From Thuidium tamariscinum (lineage: Eukaryota > Streptophyta > Bryopsida > Hypnales > Thuidiaceae), in contig OX344751.2 of assembly GCA_947034885.2 (NCBI GenBank), positions 7,316,001 to 7,380,000 on the forward strand: 64,000 bases of DNA. The letters are read 5' to 3'. The notes beneath the pieces were generated by a model, which did not search any database, was not told the origin of the DNA, and saw only the letters and a program-made list of their open reading frames with translations. Below, one piece after another: positions 17,399 through 27,420 of this stretch. The position numbers and the translations under genes are program-made. Position 1 is the first letter of the stretch, and every line of letters starts with the position of its first letter.

Positions 17399-17480
17399 TT
17401 ATTTTTCCCTACAATGAATAGGGAAAAATAATGTAGACTATTTTTCTATTCATTGTATAGGGAAAAATAATGTAGACTAA
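17399..17480. repeat. 39-bp tandem duplication upstream of the LINE
   Basis: TAGGGAAAAATAATGTAGAC occurs twice, 39 bp apart, just before the LINE sequence starts. It may be pre-existing flank or an integration scar. Confidence 0.7.
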
Positions 17481-17668
17481 AATGTAATCCCACTCATGCC
17501 CGGGAGCCTACTGCTACCGGGAGGGATTCTACATTATACTTCAAACAAATCGCAATCCATATCAAACCCATTGCAATACATAGAAACTTCCCTTGTAATA
17601 CATACACTTTACAACATACTTGTTCAAACATAGACCAAACTCTTAAAACTCCAATCTTTCTCCAAAAT

Positions 17669-19724
17669 ATGGATCTTCTCTACTCTAAAAAGTTTCAAAA
17701 TAGTATATCTTTTCTAAAACAAAAGCGCATACATACATGCCTTAACATTTCTCAAATCATACTAGTTTTGAACATTTGGCCTAAAAATCAAATTCAATTT
17801 TACGCAGGTACAATGTCAGACCCTCTACAAAGCAACAAAGTTCGGAGACATATGGCTTACTCAAACGAAATTGAGATGGAAGATGCATCTGGTTCACAAA
17901 AGCGCACTACACCAGAAGCTGAGGAATCTACACAAAAGAAATCGAAAGGCACCGTCACAACTATGGCCCTCCCCAGTGCACCAGTATTGTATGAATTCTG
18001 GTATGGGTTTCCTACTATGGAAACCCTTGCCTACGAGGCCAGCATGCCGCCGTTCATCAACAAAGCATCAGCAGCAGAACTCATTTCCCAGGGATACAAT
18101 CCACAAGAAGCAGACGACCTCACAAAAGCTCGTATGTCATTTCCGCGCGTGCAACAAAAGCTGTGGCCTACATCAAGACCTGACAATATTGTAGGCCAAC
18201 ACTTCAACCTGACTCAAATTCCCTTTGATGTTGAGGTAAACATGCACACCCAACTCGCTCTCGATTACCACATTCTCTTACATTTCGAAAAACCTTTGTC
18301 TCCATTGATCCAAAAACAAGCCATGGTAAAGATCTTGGGCCGTTTTCAAGAGATGAACATACAGTTAGGTGATAGCATTGCTGACCCCATAGCAATCTTA
18401 TGTCATGGAGCCAAAAACTCCAAAGTCTGGTCAGGCATGGCTAGAATTCACCTTCAAAACCCAGAAATTGATGGTAAAGCTCTACTCCGTGGAACTAGAG
18501 TATTTGCCATTCCTCTAGATGATGACATACTCACAGTAGCCAAAGTCGCCAAATCATTAGATCCTATTACCTCTAACACCCTACTCTCTATCAAGATCAA
18601 TAGTGAGACCATTCGGAACATGGAACCCCACACTAGAAGAAAACCATGTTGAAATCCCTGAAATCACGTCATGTAGTTTGTGTTGGATTCTTGTTTCAAA
18701 ACGCAGTCAAAATGCAGTGAAAACACAAAAAAACGCAGAAAAAGCATTTTTCTGCATTTTTTTGTGTTTTGACTGCATTTTGACTGCGTTTTGAAACAAG
18801 AATCCAACACAAACTACATAACGTGATTTCAGGGATTTCAACATGGTTTTCTTCTAGTGCCACCACCTCTTCAAACAGACACTCAAAGAGAGTTTCCATA
18901 GGAGCTTTGAATTTGAACTAACACAGGTTCAAAAACCTACCGCTGAACCTTATGGCTGGTTGACAACAACATCACCGGAGCAACTGGCAAAAATCAAGCA
19001 ACAACAAATTGCAGTATTGGGAGAACTTCTACAACCAGTCAACCGAGACTTGAACCAACTGACTCGTGAGGAGGTGAACAAAAGAAACTGCCTAGTACTC
19101 ATTGTCAAAGGCATCAACCTCACCAAATCCATTGCTGAAGTAACCTAGGGATTTCACAATCACTTTGGAGTCAAAAATGTCAAATCCATCTTCTTCCCAC
19201 GGTATAAAGGCGATGCTCATAGCGGTGTGGCCAACATCGAATGTCTCAACGCCGCAATCTACAAGCAACATGTGAAGAAATCAACACGCCTTCAGCACAA
19301 ATGGGTGGAATTTCAGCCCCATCCCAACTCTCTGGATGGCACTGCCAAACCCAATGATGAAACCCTTCAAAAATGGGGTTTTTTGGACATCAACACTGCT
19401 CTAGCTGGTACAGTTGAAGCAATGCTGAACACATCATCATCCTCTGCTCCAAAACAATCACTACAGCGAGAAGAACTCTCAGCGTTGATAGGAGAGGCAG
19501 TTTCCAAAGAGAATTTGAAGTTGCGGATGGAATTTAAATCCGATATGAGTCAAATGAAAGAAGAACTGACAACGGAGGCACAAAGTTATGCAGACAAGGT
19601 AGATCAGGAGCTCAGAGGTAATCTGACAAACCTAGAATCCCTCTTAGCTCAGAGCATGCAAATGATTAAAGGTTTGACTCGCCCTACCATTAAAGCCCCT
19701 GAACCCTCCTCACCGCCAAACTAG
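17669..19724 (+). pseudogene. LINE ORF1 protein (RRM-like, coiled coil), interrupted
   Basis: ORF1 of the LINE, expected to be the RNA-binding chaperone of the ribonucleoprotein. The first ATG is at 17669; a second in-frame ATG at 17813 (MSDPLQSNK) is an equally good start. The frame runs to 18630, is broken by the fold-back at 18631-18859, and resumes in the correct frame if the insert and one CCA copy are removed. One TAG at 19146-19148 breaks it again before the natural TAG at 19722-19724. The region 19085-19285 looks RRM-like: LVLIVKGI would be RNP2 and HSGVANIECL RNP1. A charged, probably coiled-coil segment follows (about 19470-19665). Base composition is balanced, unlike the G-poor ORF2. 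The RRM call is by eye and moderate. Confidence 0.75.
18631..18859. mobile_element. CACTA-type fold-back element inserted in LINE ORF1
   Basis: A 229-bp unit with ends CACTAGAAGAAAACC and GGTTTTCTTCTAGTG, flanked on both sides by CCA (18628-18630 and 18860-18862), a 3-bp target duplication. The two arms, roughly 110 bp each, are almost perfectly complementary with only a few mismatches, leaving a very short loop. It is therefore a potential long hairpin transcript. It must be younger than the LINE copy it disrupts. CACTA ancestry is inferred from end sequence and duplication length. Confidence 0.9.
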
Positions 19725-19861: not shown

Positions 19862-22800
19862 ATGCTCTCAAATTTTTCCCATTTTTTTGTTGACATTCGA
19901 TCTCTTACACAACAATTAATTACTGATAAATCATACCTATATACACATAAACACATTGTATTTGTTAGCAACCATATTCAAATATTTAGTAAAATCTGCC
20001 AACATATTCAAGAAAAATGGAAAACTAAATTTCTTACCTCAAAACACCAAAAATTTCCTTTGTACATTACAATTCTTTTATGTGGCGATATAGAAACCAA
20101 CCCGGGACCCATGCCCGATATATTTACTAACCACCCACTTCCACATAAAAATAGATATAAAATGTACTTTATAACATGCACAATAAAACTACAACCCGAA
20201 TACCAACATTTAGCAAAACAATTTTCACCTTTAATTAACATCACACACCCACACCACAATGACACTGCCATAAATTACCCTTACATATCACAATACATTC
20301 ATCAAAACCAACATCATCCACCACCAAGACTTTTATTTGCACTTATTACCACAATTAGCCCACAATTAGGGACATGTAACCACCTATTAAGACAAATACC
20401 AATCCCAGACTGGACCACACTATTACTAGAAAAAATGGCCCTCTTACAAAACCCACCAGAAAGGCATATCTCAACACCACACCCATACATTCAATTTAAA
20501 AATCTACACCAAGACATCATTGAACCTTCTAATTCCATTCACAAAGAATTATATACTTTTATTAAACAAACACCTACACCACCAACCTTACAACTTATGC
20601 TTAACAAATTTCCATATTTACCTGAGAAACTACCTCTAGAAGCATTAAAATGCAAAGACACCTTAATAGAATACTCCCACCCTACACCTCTATCCAAATT
20701 ACCAAACACAGACACTACAAACACACAAACTACTAACTCCAATACATACATGACCACATGGAACGCCGCATCGATAAACACAGCCCTACCTAGCCTCCAA
20801 CAACTAACATCACACACACCAACTACCCATGCAATAATAACAATACAAGAAACCAAAATAACTGCAACAAAATCCACAAAATATATCGAAAACTTATTTC
20901 CACAATATAAATTAATATTCAATAATACGCATGCATTAACTAGATGTATACAACAAAGACGACCTTATACACCAGGACGTGGTGGACTCCTTACATTAAT
21001 AAATAAAAAATATGCATACCCAGGAAACATTACCAAAATTCCGACCCCAACTGAATTCTCACCCTATTTACAAATTATAAAAATCAACAATCACCCCTTA
21101 CAACCATGGCTACTACTCCACATGCACATGCCATCACACACTGATGATTTACAACTGATACCCAAAATTCAACAATGTATAAGGCAACAAATTTCCCTAC
21201 ATTCACAACACACTTATATTCTATGTGGAGACTTCAACAGAGACATTGCCCTCATTGGTAGACAAAATGAATTTAACATAACCTTGCCACAAACAGAAGA
21301 CATAGAATGGCGTAGATTTACAGACAGCCAACAACTCACATATATACATACTAACAGCCCTTTCTCTAGACAAGGTGGTCACAACTATACACAAACTAGT
21401 CTAATAGATGGTTACTATATAAATACATCTAATTCGGCTTTATACACAGCAACCACAAATCATAACCACAACCTCAATTCAGACCATTCACTAGTAACAT
21501 TAAATATACCACCAAATACATTACTAGCAAGCCCTACAACACCAATAATAAATAAGCTACCACGTATATTAAACCCTATTCCCCAAGAAAATATAGAAAG
21601 ATTTAAAACAAATTTTTTTGAAGAACACGCAATTCAAATAGCTGAACTAACCACTATTCTTATAAATGAAAATATAACAAACCACCAATGGCATGAAACA
21701 TGTAATACCTTAGACCACCTCATACACAGTATATCCAATAAAATACTTGAAAACTGCAATGCACCACCATTACTCCACCTAACAAATCGTACAACTCAAC
21801 AAGGTGGTTTTTTACCAAAAAAAATACAAAAAAAATGGAAAGCTCACCTCTCTACTTACCACCTTATTAGGAAGGCAATTTACATATCCAAACACACAAC
21901 AAATTGGACAAACCATCCAATAATAGAAGAAATACGTAACCACAACAATGCCCACATTCCACCACCTGAATCAAATGGAATAAACCAACAAGAATGGATT
22001 AACACCATAGCAAACCTAGCCAAAACTGCAAACATACAAGCTCGTAAAATAACTACACAATATACGCAAAAATGCATCAAAAAGGCAATCTCAAAATATA
22101 GACAGCTATATGAAAAAAGCCCCAAAAAAATAAATAAATAAATATTCAAAAACCAAAATACCCCCTCACTAGATTGCATTTTGGATAGACAAAACAACTT
22201 ATTAACCAACCCGGTAGACATTGCCAATGAAATACACACCCAACAATCAATTAATAATAGCCCTACAGTTCCAACATGCTATTATCTACCAGAACATCCA
22301 CCACATTGTACATACGTAGTGAGACAATATCCATGGCATGACCTAGATGGTTTTGTCATAGACAAACGTGGAACCCCGGATACCCCCTTATACACTTACT
22401 TCACCAAAGAAACATATGACATATGTTTAAAACACTTATCCAATAACAAAAACCCTGGCCCAGACTTAATTCCAAACATAATCCTTAAAAATATGCCTCA
22501 ATGTTTGCAAAACCTCCTTTTTCTATTCTTCAAACACTGTTACAAACACAAACAAATCCCATCATCTTGGAAAACTAGTCTGACTATACTACTTTATAAA
22601 AAAGGAGATTCTTCTCAACTATCAAATTATAGACCAATTGCACTTGCAAACACCATCTACAAATTTTTCACTAGTACTCTCACTTTAACACTCTCAAACT
22701 ATGGCGAAAAATACCAAATACTTCATGATAGCCAAGAAGGATTTAGACCAGAACGTAGCACGTCACGACAATTACAACTTCTTATAGCAGCTCTAGAAGA

Positions 22801-25800
22801 TGCACGCTTCACTAATCAAGACATCTACATATTATATATAGACTTCAAAAACACCTTTGGTTCCATAGACCACGCAAGGCTCTTGGCTATAATGGTAGAC
22901 CTTGGATACCCAAAAGACGCAATAGCATTAATAGGAAATATTTACTCAAACTCCACTACAATTTTTACAGGAGACCACTTTGGTAAAACTAAACCAATAC
23001 AAATACAAAGAGGAACCATCCAAGGTGACACACTCAGTCCATATCTCTTCCTCATTTTTCTAGAACCGCTACTCAGATGGCTCCAAAAAGGTAATAATGG
23101 CTACAACTTTGGTACATCCCAAATAACTATAAGTTCCTCAGCATATGCAGACGACTTAGCAGCTACATCAAATAATCCCCAATCACTCCAATCTCAACTA
23201 AACAAACTAGATAAATACTGTGAATGGGCAGGAATGGATCTAGGAGTACCAAAATGTGCAATCACTGGATGCCCAAATAAATCAAAAACAAAACCGGACA
23301 TCTTTAAAACCCAAATACTAGCCATGAACATTAACTACAGAAACCAACAAATACCAGTCTTACACCAACACGAACCCTACCCATATTTAGGAATACAACT
23401 AGTGCCTTCTCTAAAATGGAAACTACAAACTCACATCACCACTAAAAAGGTAATAGATCAATGTGCACAACTCACTAAGTGCCCAGCTACAATAAATCAA
23501 AAAATCAATATGGTTGACACTGTAATTAGAGCAGGCATAGCCTACAGCTTTTATGCAGTGCCATATTCTCTACCAACAATTAAAAAACTTGATAAAAAGA
23601 TCATTGGAATTCAGAAAACTATATGTGGATTACCAAAATGCACTGCCAACGTAATAGCACAACTTCCACATTAATTTTTTGGACTTGAAGCCTTCTCTCT
23701 TAAAAATGCATACTTACGTTGCATTAGCGAACAACTTAGAAATGCTCTAAATGATTCAGGAAGGTTGGGAATAATATATAGAGGACTCACCCACCATATC
23801 TTGGCCAAGTATGGAGGGGCAGAAAACATTCCAAGAATCAAACAACAAGACTGTGTCAGATCACCTACAACAAGGACCCTCTTTTTGCTAAAGCATGAAG
23901 CAAACATCCACCTCATGAGTGTCATAGAAAACTTTCAACTACATCCAACTGAGCTTGAAAAAGAATGGATGTCACAAACCACTCTTACTCTACCACATAT
24001 AAATCCCAAACTTTCTTTTAAAATGCTACATAAACTTCTTCTACATAACATACATAAAATTAAACACATTACACTACCAAATGGTACAAATTTAATGTCA
24101 CCCGAAGACTTCAAAATATACTACAAAACTCCAACCAAAGTTGAAAAAGCTGCTTTAAATATAGCAGAACAAATTTTCTGTTATCCACATTATACACCTG
24201 AATGTTCACAACCTTGCCCAAGACACCCACTACCAAGAACTCTAAAAGCACAATACATTTCAGATAACCAAAATTTAAACCCCAGGACTCCATATAACCC
24301 CCCACATCCACCACTAGTACAAATACCACAACAACAAAATCCACCTCTACATATTCAAAACAATCCACTTACCTTCCCCATAAACAGTATAATAGGTCAC
24401 CAAATCAAAGAAATCAAAGACAAATACAAAATTCCTAAAAAAGTTAATATATACCTTTGCCAATGGACACTTGAAGAGGACACCACTTATAATAAATGGC
24501 TACCACAAATAAATCTTTTCCCGCTTAACCAACCAACGGTAATTGCACACAACATCAATCTACTAACACAATACTATACAAAACAACAACACAAATACTA
24601 CAAAAACCTCATCATGATCAACTTTAACCATGAACAATCTAGAGATAATAGATTTATCCCACCCCCAACAATAATTCCACTTATGCAAATCTCAACTAAT
24701 GAATGCAATCCAGAAAAAGACATAATAACAAACACACCTACCATAATAACACAAAATGAACTAACACATATATACCTTGACACCGGTAACTACCTCATAA
24801 CTATCCCAACCACTAGATTAAAATGGCTATGGAAACAATACCAAGATGCTATTCATAATACACATGGCTTGATACCACCTGCACAATCATTTGAAACCGA
24901 GATCACGTGGCTATATCAACGTTACAAATATAAGAAATCTAATAAAAATACGCTAAGAACATCGCAACACTCCCTTCCAAAAAATATCTTAGACTCCTTA
25001 ACAAAAACATTTGACATTTCTCATTCATATTTCTCATCACCAATCACCTGCTCCACATTAATCACACAATTTTACTCTTTCTTTGAAAGAGATAAAGTAT
25101 TTGGATCACTTGGCAAAGCATTTCAATACAAATGGAAAGGCAGAGGTTTTGCACATCCCCAAAATGAAGAAACAGCCCAACAAGCACTACATTGGGCAAG
25201 ACTAGCAGCCAAACATGATCTAAACACCATAACTATATTAGTCATACCGGATATAAATTGGTATCATAACTTCTCTCCATATATTGGACCATTTGAAGAT
25301 ACACACGTCATCGCACATTTTGCGGCAGACACTATTACATACGAAAACCCAACAATTCCAATTGAACTAAACAAACAAAAACACACTGAACCCCTTGCAA
25401 TACATATTCTATGCATACATCACCTAAACCACAATATTGGCCCATCCAACCAACTAGACTCCCTCACGAAGGTCCTCCAAGATATGCAAATACCACAATA
25501 TCACATACAAATTGTTGCACCAACACCTAGTAATGTAATAGTGAAAAAGAATTCAAATTGGAAAAAACTCACTTACAAAATCAATTGTAACTCAATAAAT
25601 TTTTATATGCCCCCGTTACCAACGTATACATCTATCCCTCAATTAAAATTTCCACCGCAATATAGCTACTACACAGATGGTTCATTTATACCACCGCAGC
25701 AATACGCAAATGGACATTGGATACGCGAAAAAGCAGGATACGGCATATACAACCCTCTCAAAGAAGAAATTCGAATTTCTAAACGGCTACCTGGTTTACA

Positions 25801-27121
25801 AACCATTTTTAGAGCTGAGTTCATGGCCATACACAAAACTTTACGCATAGTTACTACCCAATACCCACATGAACCTACCTACATATTCACGGACTGCCTC
25901 AATTGCCTATATGTCATTAATACACAACTAAAACACCCCACCTCACATCGAAACCATGCAGACAAAACTATATTAGAATCTATAGTAGATATGCTCCAAA
26001 GCCGTACACAACCTACAATAATTTCCAAAATTAAAGGACACTCTAATATTGTAGGCAATGAACAAGCAGACAAACTTGCAAAAAATGGCACAACTAAAGA
26101 ATATAAATTTGCCTCAAAAAACTATGAATTTGCACATACTACTCCATTCTATTTCCAAAAAGATGAATGGCCAGGTCAAGCCCATCGTCCTGACAAAGGT
26201 CCGGTAAGATGTTTAGGAACATACATCATCAAACATGATCATGATAATAATCTTGAAGTGATGGCACAACGATTCCCTAACATTAGTAAATGGACCCTTA
26301 ACCCCGATATACATAAAGACCTCTCTAATGAATTTTGGTCAAACCCCGAAATAACCGATGCACAAAAAACAAGCCTACTAAAATTTCGCACTGGCCAATA
26401 CATGGGAAATGCTAGAAAACAATTATTTTTTGGAATTGAGAGATTTCCATCCATCACATGCTCCATTTGTAACTCTCACGACGTAGACACATGGCTCCAC
26501 GTACTCTTAAAATGCAAACAACATCATATTCATGCCCTTCGGGTCAAAAGACATAACAAAGCAGTATGGGAACTGAGAAAACTAATTCTATCTACTAAAA
26601 ATAGTAGATATTATACTCTCATGAATGCAGGAACATTCAATAACAATCCACAAGAAAATACAGTCCCCCCATGGTTATTACCTTGCTCTTGTCAAAGTCA
26701 AAGATGTCATTGTAACGCTAGATTTAAACCAGATATTCTTTGGATAAAAGGACTCTCCTACCAAAGTAACCCACCAAATATCCCAGATAATAATCTCACA
26801 ATACAATTCATTGAATTTACATATACTAATGATAGATTTGCGCAAACAACCATAGATAATAGAATTCAAAAATACCAACCACTAATAAATAGTATCTCGG
26901 CCCAAGGATGGAAAATAGATCCACTTATTGTCATTACAGCAGGAGCTCGAGGAACAACACACACTCCTTCAATGAAAATCCTTGAAACCAAACTCAAATT
27001 AACAGAAACTGCTCTAACACATACTTTCAAAGCAATCAATACCATAGCTATACAATACGCTGGATCAATTATTTTACATAAAAGAAGAATTGAAAACAAC
27101 CAACTACTTCCAATAGAATAA
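19862..27121 (+). pseudogene. LINE ORF2 polyprotein: 2A-APE-RT-RNH-CCHC-RLE
   Basis: One frame of about 2,420 codons broken only by TAA at 22139-22141 and 23672-23674; the first ATG is 19862. Domains in residues from that ATG: leader 1-82; 2A motif DIETNPGP 76-83; region of unknown role to about 295; AP-type endonuclease about 298-550 (Asn301, Glu330, GDFN with Asp457 and Asn459, SDH with His542); reverse transcriptase about 850-1140 with YIDFKNTFG, GTIQGDTLSP and YADD at 1095-1098; a methyltransferase-like segment about 1717-1870; RNase H with Asp1939, Glu1986, Asp2011 and Asp2070; finger C-X2-C-X9-H-X4-C at 2200-2218; and a restriction-like endonuclease with RHN, KPD (Asp2291), Glu2318 and KYQPL. 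The coding strand is strikingly poor in G. The stops lie between domains. No frameshift was seen. Confidence 0.9.
20087..20110 (+). other. 2A-type ribosome-skipping motif (DIETNPGP)
   Basis: In the ORF2 frame, 20081-20110 reads CGDIETNPGP, a full match to the consensus D-(V/I)-E-x-N-P-G-P, preceded by the hydrophobic stretch PLYITILL. In known 2A peptides the Gly-Pro bond is not formed and translation resumes at Pro, releasing the upstream peptide. Here that would be a leader of about 82 residues if ATG 19862 is used. An ATG follows the motif directly at 20111. Such motifs are known at the N-terminus of several trypanosome and animal LINE ORFs. Confidence 0.9.
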
Positions 27122-27420
27122 GAAACCCAACAATGAACAATACATTGTATGCTCATCTAATGCTAATAAATAAATACCCAAATTAAAATAAAATCAATCC
27201 AATTAAATCTAACTAAATCTAACACAATAAAATTTAAACTTTGGATACTTTAAACTAGTTACTTGTTACTTTAGTGTCTATTTCCGAAAGGAAAGAGTGG
27301 TCTTGCATCAATAGCCCTTGATCCTGTGGACATTGGCTCATTGTCATGATGAACAGACACTTTATTCACGCCGGACTGCTTCTTACAAGTAGGCCGGAGT
27401 TTATATATATATATACACTT
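27122..27420 (+). other. LINE 3' UTR and dinucleotide tail
   Basis: Non-coding sequence after the ORF2 stop. It changes from A-rich to a more balanced segment (about 27280-27395) with repeated GCCGGA-type words that could form a stem, and ends in a run of TA repeats at about 27400-27416. A short microsatellite tail suggests 3'-end recognition by structure rather than poly(A), but this is inference. Confidence 0.6.

Follow-up and report, generated by a model that had tools for sequence, protein, structure and literature searches.

Organization of the element

The sequence analysed here is a stretch of 64,000 nucleotides from the moss Thuidium tamariscinum (contig OX344751.2, positions 7,316,001 to 7,380,000, forward strand), hereafter called the window. 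It contains a retrotransposon without long terminal repeats (non-LTR), with an open reading frame 1 (ORF1) region followed by a long ORF2 frame (Table 1). The ORF2 frame encodes, in this order, a 2A-like motif, an apurinic/apyrimidinic-type endonuclease (APE), a reverse transcriptase (RT), a PCIF1-like domain, an RNase H, and a CCHC knuckle with a restriction-like endonuclease (RLE). Very probably this is a moss copy of a non-LTR retrotransposon of the Dualen/RandI type, which has mutated and apparently lost part of its 5' end. An earlier note had proposed this dual-endonuclease type, and the presence of APE, RT, RNase H and an R2-type RLE in the same frame supports it. The note had also read the frame as one unbroken polyprotein, which is not the case, as TAA codons interrupt the translation at residues 760 and 1271. 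The PCIF1-like domain and the 2A-like motif are additional parts that it did not contain.

Table 1. Features of the retrotransposon in the window
Feature	Position	Strand	Evidence or remark
ORF1 region	17669..19724	+	open pieces of 327 and 165 aa, split by palindromic insert
ORF2 frame	19862..27121	+	2419 codons ahead of final stop, two of them in-frame TAA
2A-like ribosome-skipping motif GDIETNPGP	20084..20110	+	motif search over 135 family proteins
APE-type endonuclease domain	20756..21496	+	PF03372 and PF14529 weak; conserved columns in 39 aligned proteins
Reverse transcriptase domain	22601..23398	+	PF00078, 7.6e-29
PCIF1-like methyltransferase fold	24731..25480	+	AHPQ at 25151-25162 in place of catalytic NPPF
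RNase H domain	25661..26089	+	PF00075, 1.1e-13
CCHC knuckle and R2-type RLE	26360..27118	+	
3'-terminal hairpin	27369..27400	+	outer stem in 28/29 minimum-energy folds
3' end, simple-repeat tail (TA)n	27401..27416	+	homology end of 28 other copies

Two endonucleases in the ORF2 frame

The CCHC knuckle (26459-26515), RHN (26549-26557), KPD (26726-26734) and Glu (26813-26815), all of which had been pointed out before, were read directly from the frame. The fold of the CCHC/RLE region matches R2, which is also the closest solved structure; the R2 elements of Bombyx, Taeniopygia and Platysternon have a CCHC plus RLE module of the same fold. In an alignment of 32 rows (the window copy and 31 relatives), the first C, the D, the H and the last C of the knuckle, the R and H of RHN, the D of PD and the Glu were identical in every row. 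The second C and the P of PD were found in 31 rows and the N of RHN in 25. The Lys had been assigned to KYQPL; this string is present, but the family-wide Lys (28 of 32 rows, 15 of 16 moss copies) sits three residues ahead of it. Profile models built here for APE, RT, PCIF, RNaseH and RLE matched none of 135 shuffled proteins at 1e-3, which, together with the R2 fold, places the RLE match above chance. R2 elements are not known to carry an APE, an RNase H or a domain like PCIF1.

Pfam matches in the translated frame located APE, RT and RNase H where the earlier note had put them, with APE N-terminal to RT. The APE matches in the window copy (PF14529, 5.9e-5; PF03372, 7.3e-5) lie below the Pfam curated cut-offs. 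An APE match was present in 45 family proteins, of which the 39 that satisfied stricter limits were aligned. All 39 have the Asp and Asn of GDxN, and the catalytic-type Glu (with one gap) and a Tyr are each present in 38, whereas the SRID and SDH columns were gapped in at least 14 rows and are hence less informative. The catalytic residues were assigned on the presumption that they follow the AP-endonuclease family.

The motif GDIETNPGP near the start of the frame matches the one given for 2A sequences in PMC4981915. D[VI]ExNPGP occurred in 25 of 135 family proteins, always ahead of the RT, and in none of 135 shuffled proteins; many of the 25 come from Haematococcus and are close relatives of one another. 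Among the 78 proteins with more than 800 residues ahead of the RT, 23 had the motif, which is thus frequent but not universal. Long interspersed nuclear elements (LINEs) known to carry 2A, e.g., L1Tc of Trypanosoma cruzi, likewise have D(V/I)ExNPGP in frame with the element proteins (PMC4981915). A title cited in that paper describes them as APE-type, whereas the window element has an RLE as well.

Relatives and placement of the family

The family set of 135 proteins comprised the window frame and 134 matches, gathered by similarity to the window element and therefore not a random sample. With the models built here, the domains followed one order: 29 proteins had the full APE-RT-PCIF-RNaseH-RLE series, 54 lacked a match only to the APE model, and the remaining 52 had shorter parts of the same order. 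Names and precomputed Pfam domains covered the best 120 of 166 matches, and the relatives among the matches listed include Haematococcus lacustris, Pleodorina starrii and Parachlorella kessleri. The Haematococcus protein P0073 has Josephin, APE, RT and RNase H by Pfam and the PCIF1-like domain and RLE by our models. P0126 gave no Pfam RNase H at E up to 0.01, yet was matched by our RNase H model. In the Pleodorina protein, APE and RT were the only domains seen.

Against Protein Data Bank (PDB) chains, the RT of the window matched vertebrate R2 best (1.8e-30), then human L1 (best 4.2e-20) and Bombyx R2 (1.1e-16). In a tree of 74 RT rows, 71 of them family members picked by length and number, the family stood apart from R2 and L1 with a support of 100/99. 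A smaller tree of 26 rows, with Pleodorina included and one L1 and two R2 as outgroups, grouped the window with Pleodorina and Haematococcus rows (98/99), its own position within the family being an open fork. Approximately unbiased (AU) tests on this tree, in which the window composition was flagged as deviating and the L1 branch was very long, rejected a union of the window with L1 (p 0.005) and with R2 (p 0.0013).

An R2-group element that gained its APE independently in plants, rather than a Dualen, would also have an RLE nearest to R2 among solved structures and vertebrate R2 chains as its best RT matches. Considering that the AU test rejects the union with R2, and that one common origin is simpler because the relatives share APE, RT, PCIF1-like domain, RNase H and RLE in identical order, we regard this explanation as quite improbable. 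Even less credible is an ordinary plant L1 with a zinc-knuckle tail at its C-terminus whose similarity to an RLE is accidental: human L1 did outscore Bombyx R2 against the window RT, and a land-plant review, in the sections consulted, names only the L1 and RTE superfamilies of LINEs, often with RNase H (PMC9033089), but the R2-like RLE fold already argues to the contrary.

The Dualen/RandI elements of Chlamydomonas and other green algae combine APE and RLE with RT and RNase H, as the window element does, and also share a tail of short repeats other than poly(A). In the 28 other copies extending to the 3' end, homology stops at 27410-27420 of the window, where the tails, which follow the hairpin, are (TA)n, (CTAT)n or (TATTA)n-like; these copies and the window formed the set of hairpin folds. 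According to the parts consulted of PMC3747384, all eight RandI families of green algae have repeats other than (A)n, with tails such as (ATT)n and (CTATTT)n, whereas flowering-plant L1 ends in (A)n in 224 of 233 families. Dualen is given as the group having both nucleases (PMC3636483, PMC4640811) and has been reported from Chlamydomonas relatives (PMC8226300). It appears under green algae only in the portion consulted of PMC4438587, and as a repeat label in cryptophytes in PMC12747079. The window element differs from these in its moss host.

At the N-terminus, some relatives (P0016-P0135) have a Josephin, OTU or Ulp1-type peptidase domain or a PHD finger in the precomputed Pfam data. Our Pfam scans gave Josephin at 4.3e-11 in P0073 and at 1e-4, below the cut-off, in P0126, and OTU below the cut-off in P0016 and P0019. 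This suggests the exchange of a deubiquitinase-like or chromatin-reading part.

Genomic copies and selection

The C-terminal ORF had at least 42 match rows in the host genome, at 41 separate places (two rows adjoin); the APE part had at least 48 and the N-terminal part at least 39, counts that are lower bounds and in which some rows are fragments of a single copy. An APE row lay upstream on the same strand within 6 kb for 35 of the 42 C-terminal rows, and for 23 of the 29 rows that reach into the RLE. Contamination is unlikely because C-terminal matches are present on every contig from C1 to C11. The contig of the window, C3, starts with CCCTAAA telomere repeats. Another contig, C19 (115 kb), has plastid frames resembling rps12, rps7 and ndhB, the first and last of these named by eye. 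Among at least 120 matches, its rps7 is 99% identical to those of Thuidium and Calohypnum over 92% of the query, with other mosses at lower identity and Marchantia at 88%, which points to a moss host, most likely from the Hypnales.

Selection was examined in 16 sequences of unchanged length: the window together with 15 of the 29 further copies retrieved, copies of altered length being excluded. Over the 120 pairs, which share history and are not independent, the ratio of mean nonsynonymous to mean synonymous divergence (dN/dS) was 0.155 for the C-terminal ORF, 0.092 for the RLE, 0.131 for the RNase H, 0.192 for the PCIF1-like part and 0.179 for the RT end with linker. These C-terminal parts are under purifying selection, and the RLE is the most constrained of them. 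Together with the many copies of the moss family, this speaks for an RLE that is in use rather than a remnant.

The PCIF1-like domain

Between RT and RNase H, Pfam matched PCIF1_WW at 1.2e-13. The fold aligns with the methyltransferase core of human PCIF1 (chain residues 417-668). The window domain shares this core and the FGS segment with PCIF1/CAPAM, the cap-specific N6,2'-O-dimethyladenosine (m6Am) methyltransferase, but it lacks NPPF, leaves the remainder of PCIF1 unaligned and lies inside a retrotransposon polyprotein. Most family members of adequate length have the domain. The parts consulted of published Dualen descriptions mention neither this domain nor the 2A motif, and our literature search, which did not reach all key papers, found no publication joining PCIF1 with Dualen.

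The domain is most likely a non-catalytic module that may bind RNA or its cap. We consider it unlikely that it is an active adenine methyltransferase with an altered motif, modifying the element's own RNA or cDNA. The retained fold, the dN/dS of 0.19 and the N-P kept at the site by some relatives, e.g., ANP-EY, and NPPP in one, would fit such an activity. However, NPP with F, Y or W as the next residue is absent from all 105 aligned family proteins; 38 of them have WNVA and one WNIA, and the moss copies have AHPQ (15 of 16) or VHPQ (1 of 16). Disruption of NPPF lowered PCIF1 activity (PMC6318281), and a changed NPPF could account for the mark missing in Drosophila, although the consulted text of the same source doubts that the sole F to Y change in honey bees explains their absence of the mark (PMC9479742).

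It is possible, albeit doubtful, that the ancestor of the whole Dualen clade acquired a cap methyltransferase of the PCIF1 type before the split between green algae and land plants, lost its chemistry and retained the domain as a reader of its own capped RNA 5' end. In several giant viruses, Tetraselmis virus 1 among them, predicted proteins also match PCIF1-like folds, and giant viruses are a possible transfer route for the domain.

Evidence against the interpretation

Several observations weigh against this interpretation of the element and its domains. The window copy is inactive, because its frame contains two stops, its 5' leader is shortened and both nucleases have lost conserved residues: it is the sole aligned APE without the Tyr, which another fetched moss copy retains, and the family Lys of the RLE is changed. 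No target-site duplication was recognised, which makes the division of labour proposed below for the two nucleases tentative. The Dualen description of Kojima and Fujiwara in 2005 reportedly includes a cysteine protease domain, for which Pfam found nothing in the pieces of the window frame at E up to 1; the moss N-terminus has further stretches to which no domain is assigned. Neither RT tree contained a Repbase Dualen sequence. Low dN/dS reflects inheritance from source copies and is no proof that each domain works as an enzyme; the test covered the C-terminal ORF, outside which the APE and the RT core lie. Pfam found no PCIF1 in two scanned Haematococcus proteins and lists none for the Haematococcus rows, where the assignment comes from the model built here. 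The basis for a cap-binding role is the fold alone.

Proposed mechanism and significance

By analogy with R2 and L1, from which the enzymatic steps are inferred, the family would move by target-primed reverse transcription. The RT may recognise the RNA through the 3' hairpin and slip on the short terminal repeat. The CCHC/RLE module would bind and cut the target DNA as in R2, the APE could provide another nick, and the RNase H would remove the RNA. The 2A motif is predicted to separate a leader, formed by about 80 N-terminal residues, from the polyprotein that holds the enzymes. The PCIF1-like domain, without NPPF, may hold, e.g., the capped 5' end of the element's own RNA.

Dualen, coding for both endonuclease types, has been cited in support of a replacement of RLE by APE during LINE evolution (PMC4640811). 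This rare design has been recorded mainly from green algae and is here found in a moss, a land plant; LINEs of land plants are given as L1 and RTE only in the review sections cited above. The moss family offers a land-plant system for asking how the work of one integration is divided between two nucleases. As part of a LINE, a PCIF1-like domain that lacks the catalytic motif is unusual and raises the question of whether some LINEs recognise their own RNA cap. If a captured PCIF1 does serve as cap reader, then integration of this LINE, with its 2A switch and two nucleases, would be tied to recognising that the 5' end is intact, and full-length copies could be favoured in this way.

5' leader and ORF1

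Homology of the window to other copies begins at 17471-17483. Three other copies share homology beyond this point in the upstream direction, which suggests that the 5' leader of the window copy has been truncated or altered. The leaders of five copies (L046, L047, L049, L050 and L051) match mutually at 87-90% over about 430 bases ahead of the start of window homology, and beyond that two of them still match at a weaker 73-81%, a pattern that would fit rapid evolution of the 5' region. Immediately 5' of the homology start, at 17400-17477, the window has two tandem 39-base units that are 87% alike.

In the first piece of ORF1, Pfam found nothing at E up to 1. The palindrome within ORF1 (18631-18859) is near-perfect and spans 229 bases, with two 113-base arms that are 97% complementary and lie 3 bases apart. 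It is probably an insertion resembling a miniature inverted-repeat transposable element (MITE).
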